DNA of 64,000 nucleotides from a virus: positions 30,519 through 94,518 of the IMG/VR virus record IMGVR_UViG_3300044695_005756; one strand, given 5' to 3'. Under the pieces are notes generated by a model, which saw only the letters and a list, made by a program, of their open reading frames with translations, made no database searches and was not told the DNA's origin. Below are positions 40,000 through 63,877 of this stretch, in pieces. The first letter of the stretch is position 1, and each line of letters starts with the position of its first letter. Both the position numbers and the translations under genes were made by a program.

Positions 40000-42645
40000 A
40001 TGAATCCATTAGTATCGGTAGGTTTAAGCTTTAAATCAATACAAGCCAATATTGTAAAGATTGTAAAGTTAAAAGATCAAGAAAAACTTCAAAAAAAGTT
40101 TGATGAGGTACGCGCACGACAGCAATCTTATAAGGCTCGCTATCAACAAAAAACATCACCTAAAATTTCACGCGAAAGTTTAAAAGACTCTTCTCAAAGT
40201 TTTATGTCAATGCTGTCGGGCATGGGAAATTTATTGAAAGTTCTTTTTGCTCTTGTTGGTATTGCTGGAATATTTGCGATTCTAAAAAAATCAAAATTAG
40301 GTAACTATGTTCTTGAGTTTATTCAAAGTTCACTCACATCAATTATAGACTTAATTAAAAAATCATTCAGATTTATTCGTGACGTTTTTTCAGACTCCAG
40401 AGTTAAATTATCACTTTTTAATTTTATTGTTTCTTTCCTTAGATTTATTGGAACTTTAGTTGTCGCAGCAGCTTCATTAGCAATTAGTCTTTTGCGTGAT
40501 AGTGAAATTATCAATACAATCAAAACTACCATCGTTGCAGTATTTGTTGCAATATTGGACGGAATAAAAGCGACTTATAGTATCATATCAAAACTTGTAA
40601 TGGATAATTGGGACACGCTGAAGCAAGTCACATATGATATTTTCATTGAAATCAAAAATGCTCTTTTACTTGCATTGAAAACTGCTGGAACAATAGTTTC
40701 TGGTGGAATGGATCCTAGAATAACAGATGGTCTCAAAGAAATTTTTGTTGAAGCATGGCGATTCATAGTGGCATTATTCACAACAGAGTTTCAAGATCCT
40801 GATACAGGTAAAAAATTTACGTTACTGAAAGAAGGTGGTTTATGGGTAGCTGAAATGGCAGGTTTGGCTGCAGCGTGGATGATATTTGGCGCATGGATGA
40901 AAGAGAAAGGTAAAGCACTTTCAGGAATGAGTCTTTTAGATTTAAAAGAAGCTTGTTCTTCATGCATGGACATTCCTGATATAGACAAAGATAAAACAGG
41001 AAAGAAAAAACCAAAAGATATACCATCAAAAGGCAAAACTCCTGACAAAATTCCTCAAAAAGAAAAAGGTGTTATTGACAAAGTTACGGACTATACTAAA
41101 GAAACCTATCAAAAAGGAAAAGAATACGTAGGTAAAAAAATAACACAGGCTCGTAACGCGGTCGGTCAAGTTGTAGAATACGTTAGTGAAAAAGCCGCAC
41201 GAATAGGTGCAAAACTTGATGCTGGCTTTAAAGCACTCAAGACAAGAGTTAAAGTTGTTGCAGAAGCTTTGTATAAACCTTTAGTCGCAATGGTAAATAG
41301 TGATAAAATTAAAAGACTTCTGTTTACTGCTTTCGAAAAAAGATTTAAATCAGCAGCACTCGGCAGACTTAAAGTTTTTATTGTAGCACAGTTAGCAGGA
41401 CTTACAGCAGCAGCGGGATCAGGTGGTCTTGGCTTAGTCATCAATTTGTTATCCGCTGGTTTAGCAGCGTATGATTTATATTGTTTGTATGATCTATTGT
41501 TTGTATCTTCTGATGGTGAAAACGAAGATGGTGGTTTTTATCCTGTAATAAAAACTGAAGTTGAAAAGTGGTGGAAAGATCAAACAACACCATCTAAAGC
41601 AAGTGCTGGTCCAAAAATGCCTGAGTCTCAACCTGTAACTCAACAAGCACCATCAGCACCAACACCAGTTTCAGCTCCTAAAGTCAAAACACAACAATCC
41701 GCATCTGGAGTTATAGATTACTCAGCAGCACCAAAGCCTGAAACTTCATTTAAACAAGTATCAGCGCCTGTTGCTGCGACGGCTGCTACAACGGCAGCGG
41801 CATCAACTGCGCCATGTCAATGTCCTCCAACAATGGATACAGTAACTTCACCGCAAGACTTTCCTGCAAATTGGACTTCTGAAGTAGGAGTTGTTCCTGC
41901 TGGCATGTCAATGGAAAAACGTCAAGTTGGTGGACTTGGATATGGAGGTCAAAGAAAAAAAACAGACGGTGTAATTATACACCATACCGGTGGTAGCAGC
42001 ATTGACGTAGCAATTAGAACTCTACAAAACAGAAAACTCTCTTATCATTATTTGGTTGATAGAAACGGAAAAGTAGTTCAAATTTTACCAGATAATCTAG
42101 TCGGTTGGCATGCTGGAGACACAAACAAAAAACCAGCGTTTAATAACTATAATACCATAAGTATTTCAATGGTAGCAAAAGATGATAAAGATGTTACACC
42201 AGAACAAGTGGCAGCAGCAGCATCACTTGAAGCAATGCTTGCGAAAAAATATGGTTTTTCCAAAACAAATGCATTCGGACATGGTGAAGTGGCGTCATCT
42301 AAACAACCTACAGAAGGATTTACCATCGCAAATGCAATTCGTTCTGGTTCAGTAGGTCAAAAACTTCAAAATTTTGCAGATCAAACCATAGAAGAAGTGA
42401 AGCCTACAATTTCATCTGCGGCACAAACAGTCACACAAAAATCAGGAGAAGTATTAGATAGTGCATCTGGTATGGTAAGATCAGGACTTAGAACGCTTGA
42501 AGACATGTTCTTATCAAATCGTCCATCATTTACTGACTTATCAACAACAGTAATTCAAAATAACACGATTAGTAAACCTGGCGGTAATATGAAAGATAAA
42601 GAATCTCAGTCTTTTGAATTTTTAATAGCCCGCCAACTCAATTAA
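40000..42645 (+). CDS. Tape-measure-like tail protein with C-terminal amidase, paralogue 2
   Basis: 881 aa. The N-terminal ~300 residues match the plan of the preceding protein: basic helix, hydrophobic segments near 70-95 and 145-170, and an ILDGIKATYSIISKL segment. After a Pro/Ala-rich linker a type-2 amidase (PGRP/T7 lysozyme-like) domain occupies residues ~645-790: VIIHHTGG (H661, H662), LSYHYLVDRNGKVVQ, VGWHAGD, and AFGHGEV (H761) with a KQPTEG turn. It would cleave the N-acetylmuramoyl-L-alanine bond. Carried in the tail, it could open the wall during DNA injection. It starts directly after the previous stop. Confidence 0.8.
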   Translation: MNPLVSVGLSFKSIQANIVKIVKLKDQEKLQKKFDEVRARQQSYKARYQQKTSPKISRESLKDSSQSFMSMLSGMGNLLKVLFALVGIAGIFAILKKSKLGNYVLEFIQSSLTSIIDLIKKSFRFIRDVFSDSRVKLSLFNFIVSFLRFIGTLVVAAASLAISLLRDSEIINTIKTTIVAVFVAILDGIKATYSIISKLVMDNWDTLKQVTYDIFIEIKNALLLALKTAGTIVSGGMDPRITDGLKEIFVEAWRFIVALFTTEFQDPDTGKKFTLLKEGGLWVAEMAGLAAAWMIFGAWMKEKGKALSGMSLLDLKEACSSCMDIPDIDKDKTGKKKPKDIPSKGKTPDKIPQKEKGVIDKVTDYTKETYQKGKEYVGKKITQARNAVGQVVEYVSEKAARIGAKLDAGFKALKTRVKVVAEALYKPLVAMVNSDKIKRLLFTAFEKRFKSAALGRLKVFIVAQLAGLTAAAGSGGLGLVINLLSAGLAAYDLYCLYDLLFVSSDGENEDGGFYPVIKTEVEKWWKDQTTPSKASAGPKMPESQPVTQQAPSAPTPVSAPKVKTQQSASGVIDYSAAPKPETSFKQVSAPVAATAATTAAASTAPCQCPPTMDTVTSPQDFPANWTSEVGVVPAGMSMEKRQVGGLGYGGQRKKTDGVIIHHTGGSSIDVAIRTLQNRKLSYHYLVDRNGKVVQILPDNLVGWHAGDTNKKPAFNNYNTISISMVAKDDKDVTPEQVAAAASLEAMLAKKYGFSKTNAFGHGEVASSKQPTEGFTIANAIRSGSVGQKLQNFADQTIEEVKPTISSAAQTVTQKSGEVLDSASGMVRSGLRTLEDMFLSNRPSFTDLSTTVIQNNTISKPGGNMKDKESQSFEFLIARQLN

Positions 42646-47344: not shown

Positions 47345-47358
47345 AATGTATCTCTGAA

Positions 47359-47650
47359 TTTGGTGTAGGGTGTTTTGGTAATAAGGTACACCCCACTTAA
47401 ACCCCATGAGAGTTACGCTGCTAGGCGTTCTTCTCCGTAAAATGCATCGTTTGCATTTGTAGATTTGCTTGATTTACAGTCATCGCCTACTGTGTTGCCT
47501 TCTCCGCTATCTCACCCTGTCGAAGCCATGTCATCCCCATCAAAAGTATTCTCACGGTTTATCTTTCCGTTCCCAACTCCATGGACAAGAATACTTTTGG
47601 TGGAGATGCCGGGGATCGAACCCGGGTCCAGAATGCCTTCACTTTGAAGG
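47359..47650 (-). ncRNA. ssrA: Circularly permuted two-piece tmRNA (ssrA)
   Basis: Transcribed leftward. The acceptor part comes first: T-arm CCGGG-TTCGATC-CCCGG, then CATCTCC-A-CCA ending at 47598. About 59 nt later the coding part begins at 47538 with GGGGATGACATGGCTTCGAC. GGGGATG pairs with CATCTCC in a 7-bp acceptor stem with the G3-U70 pair that marks alanine tRNAs. The tag reading frame is downstream (47413-47454). The intervening segment (47539-47597) has a 10-11-bp inverted repeat (47542-47552 with 47588-47598) that would hold the two ends together before processing. The outer ends (hairpins at 47362-47393 and 47636-47650) are approximate. tmRNA rescues stalled ribosomes. Confidence 0.9.
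47413..47454 (-). other. tmRNA proteolysis tag reading frame
   Basis: Resume codon GCA at 47454-47452 opens ANDAFYGEERLAA and ends at TAA 47415-47413. The AND start and the LAA end are standard for tmRNA tags; the LAA end is the ClpX recognition signal in known systems. Confidence 0.9.
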
Positions 47651-47809
47651 AGTTACAACAATTCCGTCTTCTTGCATTATTGCATCAAATTCATTTTTTC
47701 TTGCTGCATACCAACCCCATGCACCAAAGAATGTTGTGCCTGGATTAGAACCACATTCTTTCAAGTATGCTTCAAATCTTTCGTAATAATCTTGTTCACT
47801 AATTTGCAT
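47639..47809 (-). CDS. Small hypothetical protein abutting the tmRNA
   Basis: 56 aa (MQISEQDYYERFEAYLKECG, then GTTFFGAWGWYAARKNEFD). It starts 2 nt after the stop of the upstream gene. Its last codons and TGA form part of the hairpin at 47636-47650, so the coding region overlaps the presumed 5' edge of the tmRNA acceptor piece. Function unknown. The tight spacing supports it being real. Confidence 0.6.
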   Translation of the reverse strand: MQISEQDYYERFEAYLKECGSNPGTTFFGAWGWYAARKNEFDAIMQEDGIVVTPSK

Positions 47810-60376: not shown

Positions 60377-60551
60377 GTTTATTGATGGTGAACTATTTTA
60401 CTTTGTTTTTACGAACAAAGGTAATAATCTAATTCTCATGACAAGAGATAGTAGGCTAGCAACTCAAACCAATGCTGCATTAAAAAACAAAAAAGATGAT
60501 TCTTACTTTAGAATCAATGCGGTGCGTGATAGAAAAAAAGCGGCTTGGTAG
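60360..60551 (+). CDS. Small hypothetical protein
   Basis: 63 aa from tandem ATGs (60360/60363). Beta-rich N-terminus (LKLEFIDGELFYFVFTNKG) and basic C-terminus (FRINAVRDRKKAAW). Its stop codon lies inside the following terminator stem. Confidence 0.65.
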   Translation: MMLKLEFIDGELFYFVFTNKGNNLILMTRDSRLATQTNAALKNKKDDSYFRINAVRDRKKAAW

Positions 60552-60565
60552 CCGCTTTTATTTTT
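60536..60565. terminator. Bidirectional intrinsic terminator
   Basis: GC-rich stem GCGGCT (60540-60545) and AGCCGC (60550-60555) with TGGT loop, extended by A/T pairs, A run on one side and T run on the other. It separates the plus pair of genes from the leftward pqqA-like/rubrerythrin unit and can end both. Confidence 0.85.
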
Positions 60566-60570
60566 ACTAA

Positions 60571-60645
60571 TTAACGATTTGCAATATACATTGTGATTTC
60601 AAAACCGAAACGCATATCTTGTGCTGATGGTGTAGTCCACTTCAT
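60571..60645 (-). CDS. pqqA: PqqA-like peptide (PQQ precursor)
   Basis: 24 aa, beginning MKWTTPSAQD and containing GFEITMY. The key Glu and Tyr (E16 and Y20, spacing E-x-x-x-Y) that become the PQQ ring are present, and the surrounding residues are typical of PqqA (for example GFEVTMY in pseudomonads). A strong AAGGAG Shine-Dalgarno precedes it, and a terminator follows. PqqA is the peptide substrate of PqqD/PqqE; no other pqq gene is in this window, so a host or another part of the phage must supply them. It is 14 nt after the rubrerythrin stop. Confidence 0.82.
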   Translation of the reverse strand: MKWTTPSAQDMRFGFEITMYIANR

Positions 60646-60659
60646 TTTTTTCTCCTTAG

Positions 60660-61094
60660 TTAGTTATTTTCTGCTAAATGTTTGTCCAACGCTTTTTGAT
60701 AACGATTAGCATGTGACCGTTCTGCTTTCGCAAGTGTCTCAAACCAATCTGCTACTTCATCAAAACCTTCATCGCGGGCAATTTTTGCCATACCAGGATA
60801 CATGTCAGAATATTCGTGTGTTTCACCATGAATTGCTGCTTCTAACATTTCTCTAGCAGACTTTGCTGGCATATTTGTGCCTGGCTCACCCGCACCGCCT
60901 TCAATGAGATATTCCATGTGACCGTGTGCATGTCCTGTTTCGCCTTCAGCAGTAGAACGGAATAATGCAGCAAGATCGTTTTCACCTGCGATATCACATT
61001 GATTTGCGAAATACAGATAACGACGGTTTGCCATAGATTCTCCAGCAAAAGCTTCTTTCAAGCATTCTGCGGTTTTTGTACCCTTCAAACTCAT
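60660..61094 (-). CDS. Rubrerythrin-like diiron protein
   Basis: 144 aa. Four-helix bundle with [13 protein letters not shown] (E19), [10 protein letters not shown] (E52, H55), [15 protein letters not shown] (E91, E94) and [11 protein letters not shown] (E125, H128). There is no C-terminal rubredoxin Cys pair, so it needs an external electron donor. The family reduces peroxide or stores redox iron. Likely co-transcribed with the pqqA-like gene. Confidence 0.9.
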
Positions 61095-61342: not shown

Positions 61343-61416
61343 TGGAGCGGGATATCAGAATCGAACTGATAACAGGAGCTTGGAAGGCTCACGTTTTACC
61401 ATTAAACTAATCCCGC
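61343..61416 (-). tRNA. tRNA-Gly(UCC)
   Basis: Acceptor GCGGGAT/ATCCCGC, discriminator U, CCA encoded; anticodon TCC in CTTCCAA. Confidence 0.93.
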
Positions 61417-62631: not shown

Positions 62632-62723
62632 TGGCGGTAAGTGTGGGATTTGAACCCACGGAACGTATTTCTACGCTCGACGGTTTAGCAAACCGCTGAT
62701 TTAAGCCTCTCATCCAACTTACC
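62632..62723 (-). tRNA. tRNA-Ser(GCU)
   Basis: Acceptor GGTAAGT/ACTTACC plus CCA, anticodon GCT in TTGCTAA, long variable arm of about 19 nt (GAGCGTAGAAATACGTTC region). Its 5' end overlaps the stop of the SGNH hydrolase gene. Confidence 0.92.
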
Positions 62724-63123
62724 GTGTCTGATCCGCAAGTTTTTTGTAACCTTTTCCAGTAGGATGTACACCATCCGCACTAATATCACTCTCTGGTCGA
62801 GAAATTACTACATCTCCAAACTCTGCTGCGACTTGTTTTACTGCTTCTACTTGTTTTGGCTTCAATTTTTGACTCGGTAAAAGCCAAAAAACTTTTTGTG
62901 CTTGTGCATTTGTTCGTAATGACCGAATATTTCCTTCTGTGTTGATACCTAAATCATTTGCACCAAGACTGATAATCAAAGTTTTTGTCGGTTGTAGTTT
63001 ATTCATATAGATTTTATTCCAATTATGTGAATTGATACCACTCTTCACATATGCAACACACTCCCTACGAACTTGACTCACACCAACACCGATGCTATCA
63101 CCAACAATTAAACATTCTAACAT
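62719..63123 (-). CDS. SGNH/GDSL hydrolase
   Basis: 134 aa. Catalytic Ser block VGDSIGVGV (S10), Asn block GANDLG (N56) and the D-x-x-H block DGVHPTGKGY (D117, H120). The Gly block is partially visible (SGINSHNW). Esterase or deacylase on cell-envelope or virion glycans is possible. The last codons and TAA overlap the 5' end of tRNA-Ser by 5 nt. Confidence 0.85.
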   Translation of the reverse strand: MLECLIVGDSIGVGVSQVRRECVAYVKSGINSHNWNKIYMNKLQPTKTLIISLGANDLGINTEGNIRSLRTNAQAQKVFWLLPSQKLKPKQVEAVKQVAAEFGDVVISRPESDISADGVHPTGKGYKKLADQTR

Positions 63124-63138
63124 AATTTTTCCTTTAAA

Positions 63139-63226
63139 TGGCGGAAGCGGTGAGATTCGAACTCACGGATCATTTCTGATCGGCAGTTTTCAAGACTGCT
63201 GATTTAAACCACTCATCCACACTTCC
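63139..63226 (-). tRNA. tRNA-Ser(UGA)
   Basis: Acceptor GGAAGTG/CGCTTCC, CCA encoded; anticodon TGA in CTTGAAA; long variable arm (CGATCAGAAATGATC). Confidence 0.93.
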
Positions 63227-63231
63227 CTAAC

Positions 63232-63309
63232 TGGAGCAACGGGTCGGATTTGAACCGACGGTTTTAGAGTTTTGCAGACTCTTGCATTGGGCCACTCTGC
63301 CACCGTTGC
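63232..63309 (-). tRNA. tRNA-Cys(GCA)
   Basis: Acceptor GCAACGG/CCGTTGC, discriminator U, CCA; anticodon GCA in CTGCAAA. Confidence 0.92.
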
Positions 63310-63314
63310 ATAAT

Positions 63315-63389
63315 TGGTGCATCGTGATGGATTCGAACCACCGACAACCTGCTTGTAAGGCAGGGATTCTACCGCTGAACTAACGATGC
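63315..63389 (-). tRNA. tRNA-Val(UAC)
   Basis: Acceptor GCATCGT/ACGATGC, ACCA end; anticodon TAC in CTTACAA. Confidence 0.92.
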
Positions 63390-63413
63390 ACAGCCTCACA
63401 CGCGATACTTATA

Positions 63414-63489
63414 TGGTGCGCTAGGAGAGATTCGAACTCTCAAAATTTGGTTTCTAAGACCAACACGTATACCGTTCCGTCACCAGCGC
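63414..63489 (-). tRNA. tRNA-Leu(UAG), short variable arm
   Basis: Acceptor GCGCTGG/CTAGCGC, ACCA end; anticodon TAG in CTTAGAA; T-arm GAGAG-TTCGAAT-CTCTC. The variable region is only 5 nt (ATTTT) where tRNA-Leu normally has a long arm. Confidence 0.82.
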
Positions 63490-63490
63490 A

Positions 63491-63565
63491 TGGTAGTAGT
63501 GGTAAGATTCGAACTTACACCTGACACCGTATGAAGGTGGCGCACTACCGTTATGCTACACTACC
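63491..63565 (-). tRNA. tRNA-Met(CAU), elongator type
   Basis: Acceptor GGTAGTG/CACTACT with a G-U first pair, ACCA; anticodon CAT in TTCATAC. Initiator hallmarks (unpaired C1, three G-C anticodon-stem pairs) are absent. Confidence 0.85.
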
Positions 63566-63567
63566 AT

Positions 63568-63641
63568 TGGTTGTCCCGACAAGAATTGAACTTGTAATGG
63601 TCGATTATCAATCGACAGTTATACCATTTAACTACAGGACA
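63568..63641 (-). tRNA. tRNA-Ile(GAU)
   Basis: Acceptor TGTCCTG/CGGGACA, ACCA; anticodon GAT in TTGATAA. Confidence 0.87.
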
Positions 63642-63645
63642 AAAT

Positions 63646-63720
63646 TGGGGTGTCTAACGGGTACCGACCCCGTACCTACTCTTTCACAGAGAGTAATGCT
63701 ACCACTACACCATAGACACC
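63646..63720 (-). tRNA. tRNA-His(GUG)
   Basis: Acceptor stem GTGTCTA/TAGACAC, encoded G-1 facing C73, CCA; anticodon GTG in CTGTGAA. Confidence 0.92.
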
Positions 63721-63722
63721 AT

Positions 63723-63796
63723 TGGCCTCGGTGGAGAGAATCGAACTCCCACATACGGTTTTGGAGACCGTGGTTCTGCCATTAAACTACACCGAG
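63723..63796 (-). tRNA. tRNA-Trp(CCA)
   Basis: Acceptor CTCGGTG/CACCGAG, discriminator G, CCA; anticodon CCA in CTCCAAA. Confidence 0.92.
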
Positions 63797-63801
63797 AAAC
63801 T

Positions 63802-63877
63802 TGGAGCGGATAGCCAGGCTCGAACTGGCGACATTTTGCTTGGCAAGCAAACATTCTACCAACTGAATTATATCCGC
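63802..63877 (-). tRNA. tRNA-Gly(GCC)
   Basis: Acceptor GCGGATA/TATCCGC, discriminator U, CCA; anticodon GCC in TTGCCAA. Confidence 0.93.

Follow-up and report, generated by a model that had tools for sequence, protein, structure and literature searches.

A lone PqqA precursor peptide gene in a T4-like phage and other viruses, and its putative role as a substrate-only auxiliary metabolic gene for PQQ synthesis

The window, that is, the whole stretch of 64 kb analysed here, is part of a virus record of 94.5 kb. A short pqqA gene lies between a rubrerythrin gene and an intrinsic terminator, and the features referred to below are located as follows.

40000–42645, plus strand: 881-aa protein with a C-terminal amidase/endolysin domain (domain match)
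47355–47702, minus strand: permuted tmRNA of the betaproteobacterial type, ARAGORN tag ANDAFYGEERLAA (beta_tmRNA, 141 bits)
60536–60559, both strands: bidirectional intrinsic terminator, AAAAGCGGCTACCAAGCCGCTTTT and T run (pattern: 10-bp stem, T-run)
60571–60645, minus strand: pqqA, 24-residue PQQ precursor peptide MKWTTPSAQDMRFGFEITMYIANR with Glu16 and Tyr20 (ORF and profile matches)
60646–60659, minus strand: gap of 14 nt from the rubrerythrin stop to the pqqA ATG, holding the Shine-Dalgarno sequence AAGGAG (sequence)
60660–61094, minus strand: rubrerythrin-like protein, 144 aa (Pfam 3.3e-25)
61343–61416, minus strand: separate tRNA-Gly (tRNA search)
62632–63877, minus strand: array of ten tRNA genes (tRNA search)

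The ORF read from 60645 to 60571 consists of 24 codons and a stop. Its product gave 39.5 bits against Pfam PF08042 (E 5.4e-10; cut-off 21.1) and 38.4 bits against the NCBIfam equivalog TIGR02107 (E 7.6e-10; cut-off 20), and the PqqA match was recovered again in a genome-level profile search. The PHROG search of the 24-aa peptide matched no family. The profile match is far beyond chance, and as judged from its sequence the ORF is a genuine PqqA. A preliminary description of this DNA had placed a PqqA-like gene of 24 residues at exactly these positions; the minus strand is added here, and both profile cut-offs are passed. Glu16 and Tyr20 at the E-x-x-x-Y spacing, in the GFExTMY context that it had pointed out, are present as GFEITMY. 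The phage peptide shares with the PqqA family, both of whose curated cut-offs it exceeds, the length of 24 residues, the W-x-x-P start and the core R-F-G-F-E-[IV]-T-M-Y, with the Glu and the Tyr four apart. The Glu16/Tyr20 numbering of Methylorubrum PqqA coincides with that of the phage peptide, and it is known that the link between these residues is made by PqqE with PqqD as a chaperone (PMC10906245). Unlike the usual PqqA, however, the gene is phage-encoded and located behind rubrerythrin, without adjoining pqqB-E. Operon linkage to pqqB-E is usual in the family but is not defining, orphan copies being common in methylotrophs.

The gap between the rubrerythrin gene (61094–60660) and pqqA is only 14 nt, and rubrerythrin is therefore probably the co-transcribed upstream partner of pqqA. 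The sequence upstream of the start codon, AACTAAGGAGAAAAAA-ATG, contains a strong Shine-Dalgarno site. The neighbouring rubrerythrin and the strong ribosome binding site had both been noted previously and are borne out. The peptide had also been credited with a terminator of its own. A hairpin with a T-run does exist, as judged from the pattern, at 60559–60536, but this terminator is bidirectional and lies 3' of both pqqA and the convergent plus-strand ORFs; it should therefore be assigned to the rubrerythrin-pqqA unit, not to the peptide alone. A tight rubrerythrin-pqqA pair (<35 nt) was found in at least nine viral loci, and PqqA occurs within the fetched flank at 23 of 80 rubrerythrin loci. 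Short rubrerythrin itself is widespread in viral contigs: one scan gave 312 confirmed stretches, on contigs up to 364 kb (L002-L081).

The window carries T4-like baseplate wedge and tail genes, a T4 RNase H, 11 tRNA genes and a tmRNA, and this gene content identifies it as a tailed T4-like phage. The best match of the baseplate wedge protein was from the Methylophilales myophage Melnitz (39.5%), followed by those of the Pelagibacter phages Mosig and HTVC008M. A tblastn search of 50,697 phage records turned up no relative of the 881-aa endolysin-like protein. Since the phage has a permuted tmRNA of the betaproteobacterial type, its host is probably a betaproteobacterium; a host comparison by tmRNA DNA similarity gave nothing informative. 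The PqqA of the window is nearest to Burkholderiales peptides, for example MKWEKPAASDMRFGFEITMYIANR in a Rhodoferax genome. This likeness does not fix the host family, because phage PqqA need not closely match that of its own host family: the PqqA of Melnitz, a phage on a Methylophilales host, is MKWTKPVAQEMRFGFEVTMYIMTR.

The preliminary description had suggested a search for the same short ORF in other phages. In the 50,697 phage records, tblastn found ten genuine phage records carrying PqqA: Melnitz (four), Venkman, MEP301, MEP401, MEP402, P19250A and a Manatee Spring podovirus. All nine of these with a named host infect Methylophilales/Methylophilaceae; the taxonomy names further Methylophilales phages outside this set, such as HIM624-A and MEP431-434. 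These PqqA records span several lineages, with Zobellviridae and small phages from other groups next to a Kyanoviridae myophage. The gene is present in compact genomes of 35 kb, and in the small methylophages it stands in contexts other than rubrerythrin. The P19250A peptide is identical to the PqqA of Methylotenera genomes, and that of the Manatee Spring podovirus to a Methylophilaceae peptide. Most of the PqqA methylophage records have no annotated gene at the pqqA site (L203-L208), and in Melnitz MZ577097.1 (L202, 3967–4062) the gene called in place of pqqA is a CDS on the opposite strand.

IMG/VR relatives were collected by one rubrerythrin search and two degenerate DNA pattern scans, and the isolates were added. 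This gave at least 219 viral loci, a few contigs being represented by two loci, with 112 distinct peptides among them and contigs up to 365 kb. Grouping by proteins shared within 6 kb merged most of the T4-like loci; immediate neighbours were used instead, which split the loci into at least 27 components, the largest of which comprised 175 loci among the matches listed. Three loci with a Klebsiella-type PqqA (L133, L153 and L154) are probably bacterial and were set aside.

The first count of conservation was circular for those loci that had been found with Glu and Tyr in the pattern. Therefore, a rescan was carried out with codons 16 and 20 set to NNN, which gave at least 119 viral stretches. 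Glu16 and Tyr20 were kept in all matches listed, 75 in newly fetched loci and 62 in earlier loci; a lack of this conservation had been put forward beforehand as evidence against the assignment. Their codons, GAA/GAG and TAC/TAT, were all used, in all combinations. Among 168 distinct DNA cores, W3, P6, R12, G14, F15, E16 and Y20 were invariant, several of these positions being fixed by the search patterns. The mean pN/pS of the viral relatives was about 0.26, with synonymous differences near saturation, and a Shine-Dalgarno-like site was present in 216 of the 219 viral loci listed. This pattern of substitution indicates that phage pqqA is under purifying selection.

The rest of the PQQ pathway was searched for with the PqqB, PqqC, PqqD and PqqE models in 57 records, namely 55 viral records (32–365 kb), among them the whole record of the window, the bacterial control W08 and the doubtful G031/L133. 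PqqB, PqqC and PqqD were absent and PqqE was below the cut-off in all 55 viral records; the record of the window is a fragment of 94.5 kb. Thus, the look for pqqB-E in the rest of the genome, as recommended in the preliminary description, gave none in this fragment or in the 54 other viral records. All four models recovered the control W08, which was the sole record over a cut-off. Weak radical-SAM matches in some viral records were not accepted as PqqE, the best of them having an E value of 3.3e-10 and 34 bits against a cut-off of 381. In bacteria, pqqB was found in 78 of 118 flanks of pqqA, in contrast to none of the viral flanks. A search for a PQQ alcohol dehydrogenase in the PqqA-bearing viral records was negative. 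Hosts lacking pqqE had been proposed as a further argument against the assignment; among 13 bacterial genomes with a similar PqqA, 12 have PqqE over the cut-off and the remaining one has a partial match.

On the host side, all 60 Methylophilaceae genomes contain pqqA, at 1–12 copies each (mean 4.6) and 275 altogether, and 57 of the 60 contain pqqC, essentially one each. Precursor dosage appears to matter in the methylotroph hosts, since there are about 4.6 pqqA genes per single pqqC. The copies in Methylophilaceae are scattered, with about three even in genomes of 1.3 Mb. Among 200 genomes from the family to which the Rhodoferax genome belongs, 46 have pqqA, mostly as a single copy. In Methylovorus MP688, which has five pqqA copies, the availability of PqqA was reported to be rate-determining (PMC11317620). 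PqqA expression is about 20-fold above that of PqqC/PqqE (PMC2294125), and purified PqqA added to a cell extract gave PQQ with 70–80% conversion (PMC9851590). The precursor is not always limiting, since overexpression of pqqAB in Acetobacter raised PQQ by only 29%, whereas the whole cluster gave an eightfold increase (PMC7936290). The orphan pqqA genes of methylotrophs (Methylovorus MP688, Methylorubrum pqqA2/pqqA3, Methylophilaceae) resemble the phage gene in that they stand alone and add precursor dosage to one enzyme set; they are chromosomal, whereas the phage copy is viral.

These results make it rather likely that phage pqqA is a substrate-only auxiliary metabolic gene feeding the PQQ pathway of the host. 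The preliminary description had proposed a precursor supplied alone to the host pathway, and all the sequence evidence agrees with such a role. During infection, the phage would express the PqqA peptide together with rubrerythrin, and the host PqqD and PqqE would cross-link Glu16 to Tyr20. A host protease, PqqB and PqqC would then complete PQQ, and the resulting rise in PQQ might load the periplasmic alcohol/methanol or sugar dehydrogenases of the host, so that the electron supply is kept up during virion production, to the benefit of the phage. One molecule of PqqA would be spent per PQQ, and the peptide would be depleted once host transcription stops, whereas the enzymes are catalytic and would persist. 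We propose that the phage encodes only PqqA for this reason, the peptide being consumed stoichiometrically while the host enzymes last.

The same peptide, cross-linked by host PqqE, might serve another end, such as the handling of lanthanides or a redox or antioxidant function. The latter would accord with the redox activity of PQQ and with the rubrerythrin next to pqqA in the tight pairs described above. In addition, two orphan pqqA copies of Methylorubrum respond to the lanthanide source, and lanthanide uptake has been suggested (PMC11317620). However, the link with rubrerythrin is not general, as seen from the rubrerythrin loci with PqqA in their flank and from the small methylophages, and one peptide would serve every one of these uses alike, so that they are not separable by sequence. 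A modified peptide with another purpose had also been considered in the preliminary description, but it found no positive evidence, and the PQQ-forming residues are strictly kept. We regard another use as unlikely.

Decoys are in use among phages, and a free-standing mimic of the substrate could saturate PqqD/PqqE. A PqqA-shaped competitive inhibitor of this kind would occupy the host PqqD/PqqE and lower PQQ or free carbon and electrons. In that case, loss of the reactive Glu or Tyr would be expected in some lineages, but both are kept in all matches listed, and in some phages the peptide does not differ at all from the host PqqA. Such an inhibitor is thus very improbable. That the gene is a functionless passenger acquired from hosts seems hardly credible either: it is tiny and its host copies are many and scattered, but the number of neighbourhood components, the saturation of synonymous sites with the protein kept, the retained Shine-Dalgarno sites and the presence in 35-kb genomes all speak against a gene without function.

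Bacterial DNA that passes for viral through misassembly or misbinning does occur among the candidates, namely two records labelled Acinetobacter phage MD-2021a (L209 CAKLQF020000010.1; CAKLQH020000055.1), which are apparently bacterial chromosome and were rejected, pqqABCDE and ppk being read in one of them, and the three bacterial-looking IMG/VR loci set aside above, but as an explanation it has next to no chance, being refuted for the window by the T4-like baseplate/tail genes, the T4 RNase H and the tRNA array, and for the isolates by their complete cultured-phage genomes. The pqqA gene is a host-type metabolic gene inside bona fide phage genomes.

PqqA was reported in 2020 in the Lake Baikal viral population VP_266 (PMC7678222). 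That population resembles the present case in being a T4-like virus with a predicted Methylophilaceae host, its PqqA being read as an auxiliary metabolic gene, and differs in that it also carried methanol dehydrogenase. One case was named in that paper; the distribution, the isolates and the missing rest of the pathway were outside its scope. In reservoir viruses, pqqA was listed among phosphorus-cycle genes (PMC13188868). Phage PqqA goes unmentioned in the publications on the marine isolates. The breadth, the substrate-only nature and the occurrence in cultured methylophages appear to be unreported in the open-access literature (the description of P19250A is under subscription).

Auxiliary metabolic genes usually encode enzymes or protein subunits, and here the virus carries the substrate alone. 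In the psbA type of cyanophages, the phage supplies a fast-turnover part of the energy system of the host. Phage pqqA is alike in supplying a component with fast turnover, but psbA encodes a protein subunit, whereas PqqA is a cofactor precursor peptide that is consumed stoichiometrically. We are inclined to think, on balance, that the supply of a lone consumable precursor is a general viral strategy in PQQ-making proteobacteria, acquired convergently by viruses that range in size from podoviruses of 35 kb up to a giant of 365 kb, and missed by gene callers. The gene is nearly invisible, with no PHROG match and no annotation in most of the cultured methylophages that carry it. Culture systems for direct tests are at hand in the OM43 strains with MEP301, MEP401/402, Melnitz and Venkman; PQQ is an ingredient of the OM43 medium in PMC9004378, and an effect of the phage gene would be masked by it. 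If the proposed role is correct, the phage gene would indicate, as an example from nature, that PQQ synthesis is limited by the dosage of its precursor. The supply of PQQ, and with it the oxidation of methanol and alcohols, would then come under the influence of viruses in lakes and oceans, and viral infection would affect PQQ-dependent methanol/alcohol oxidation in aquatic carbon cycling.
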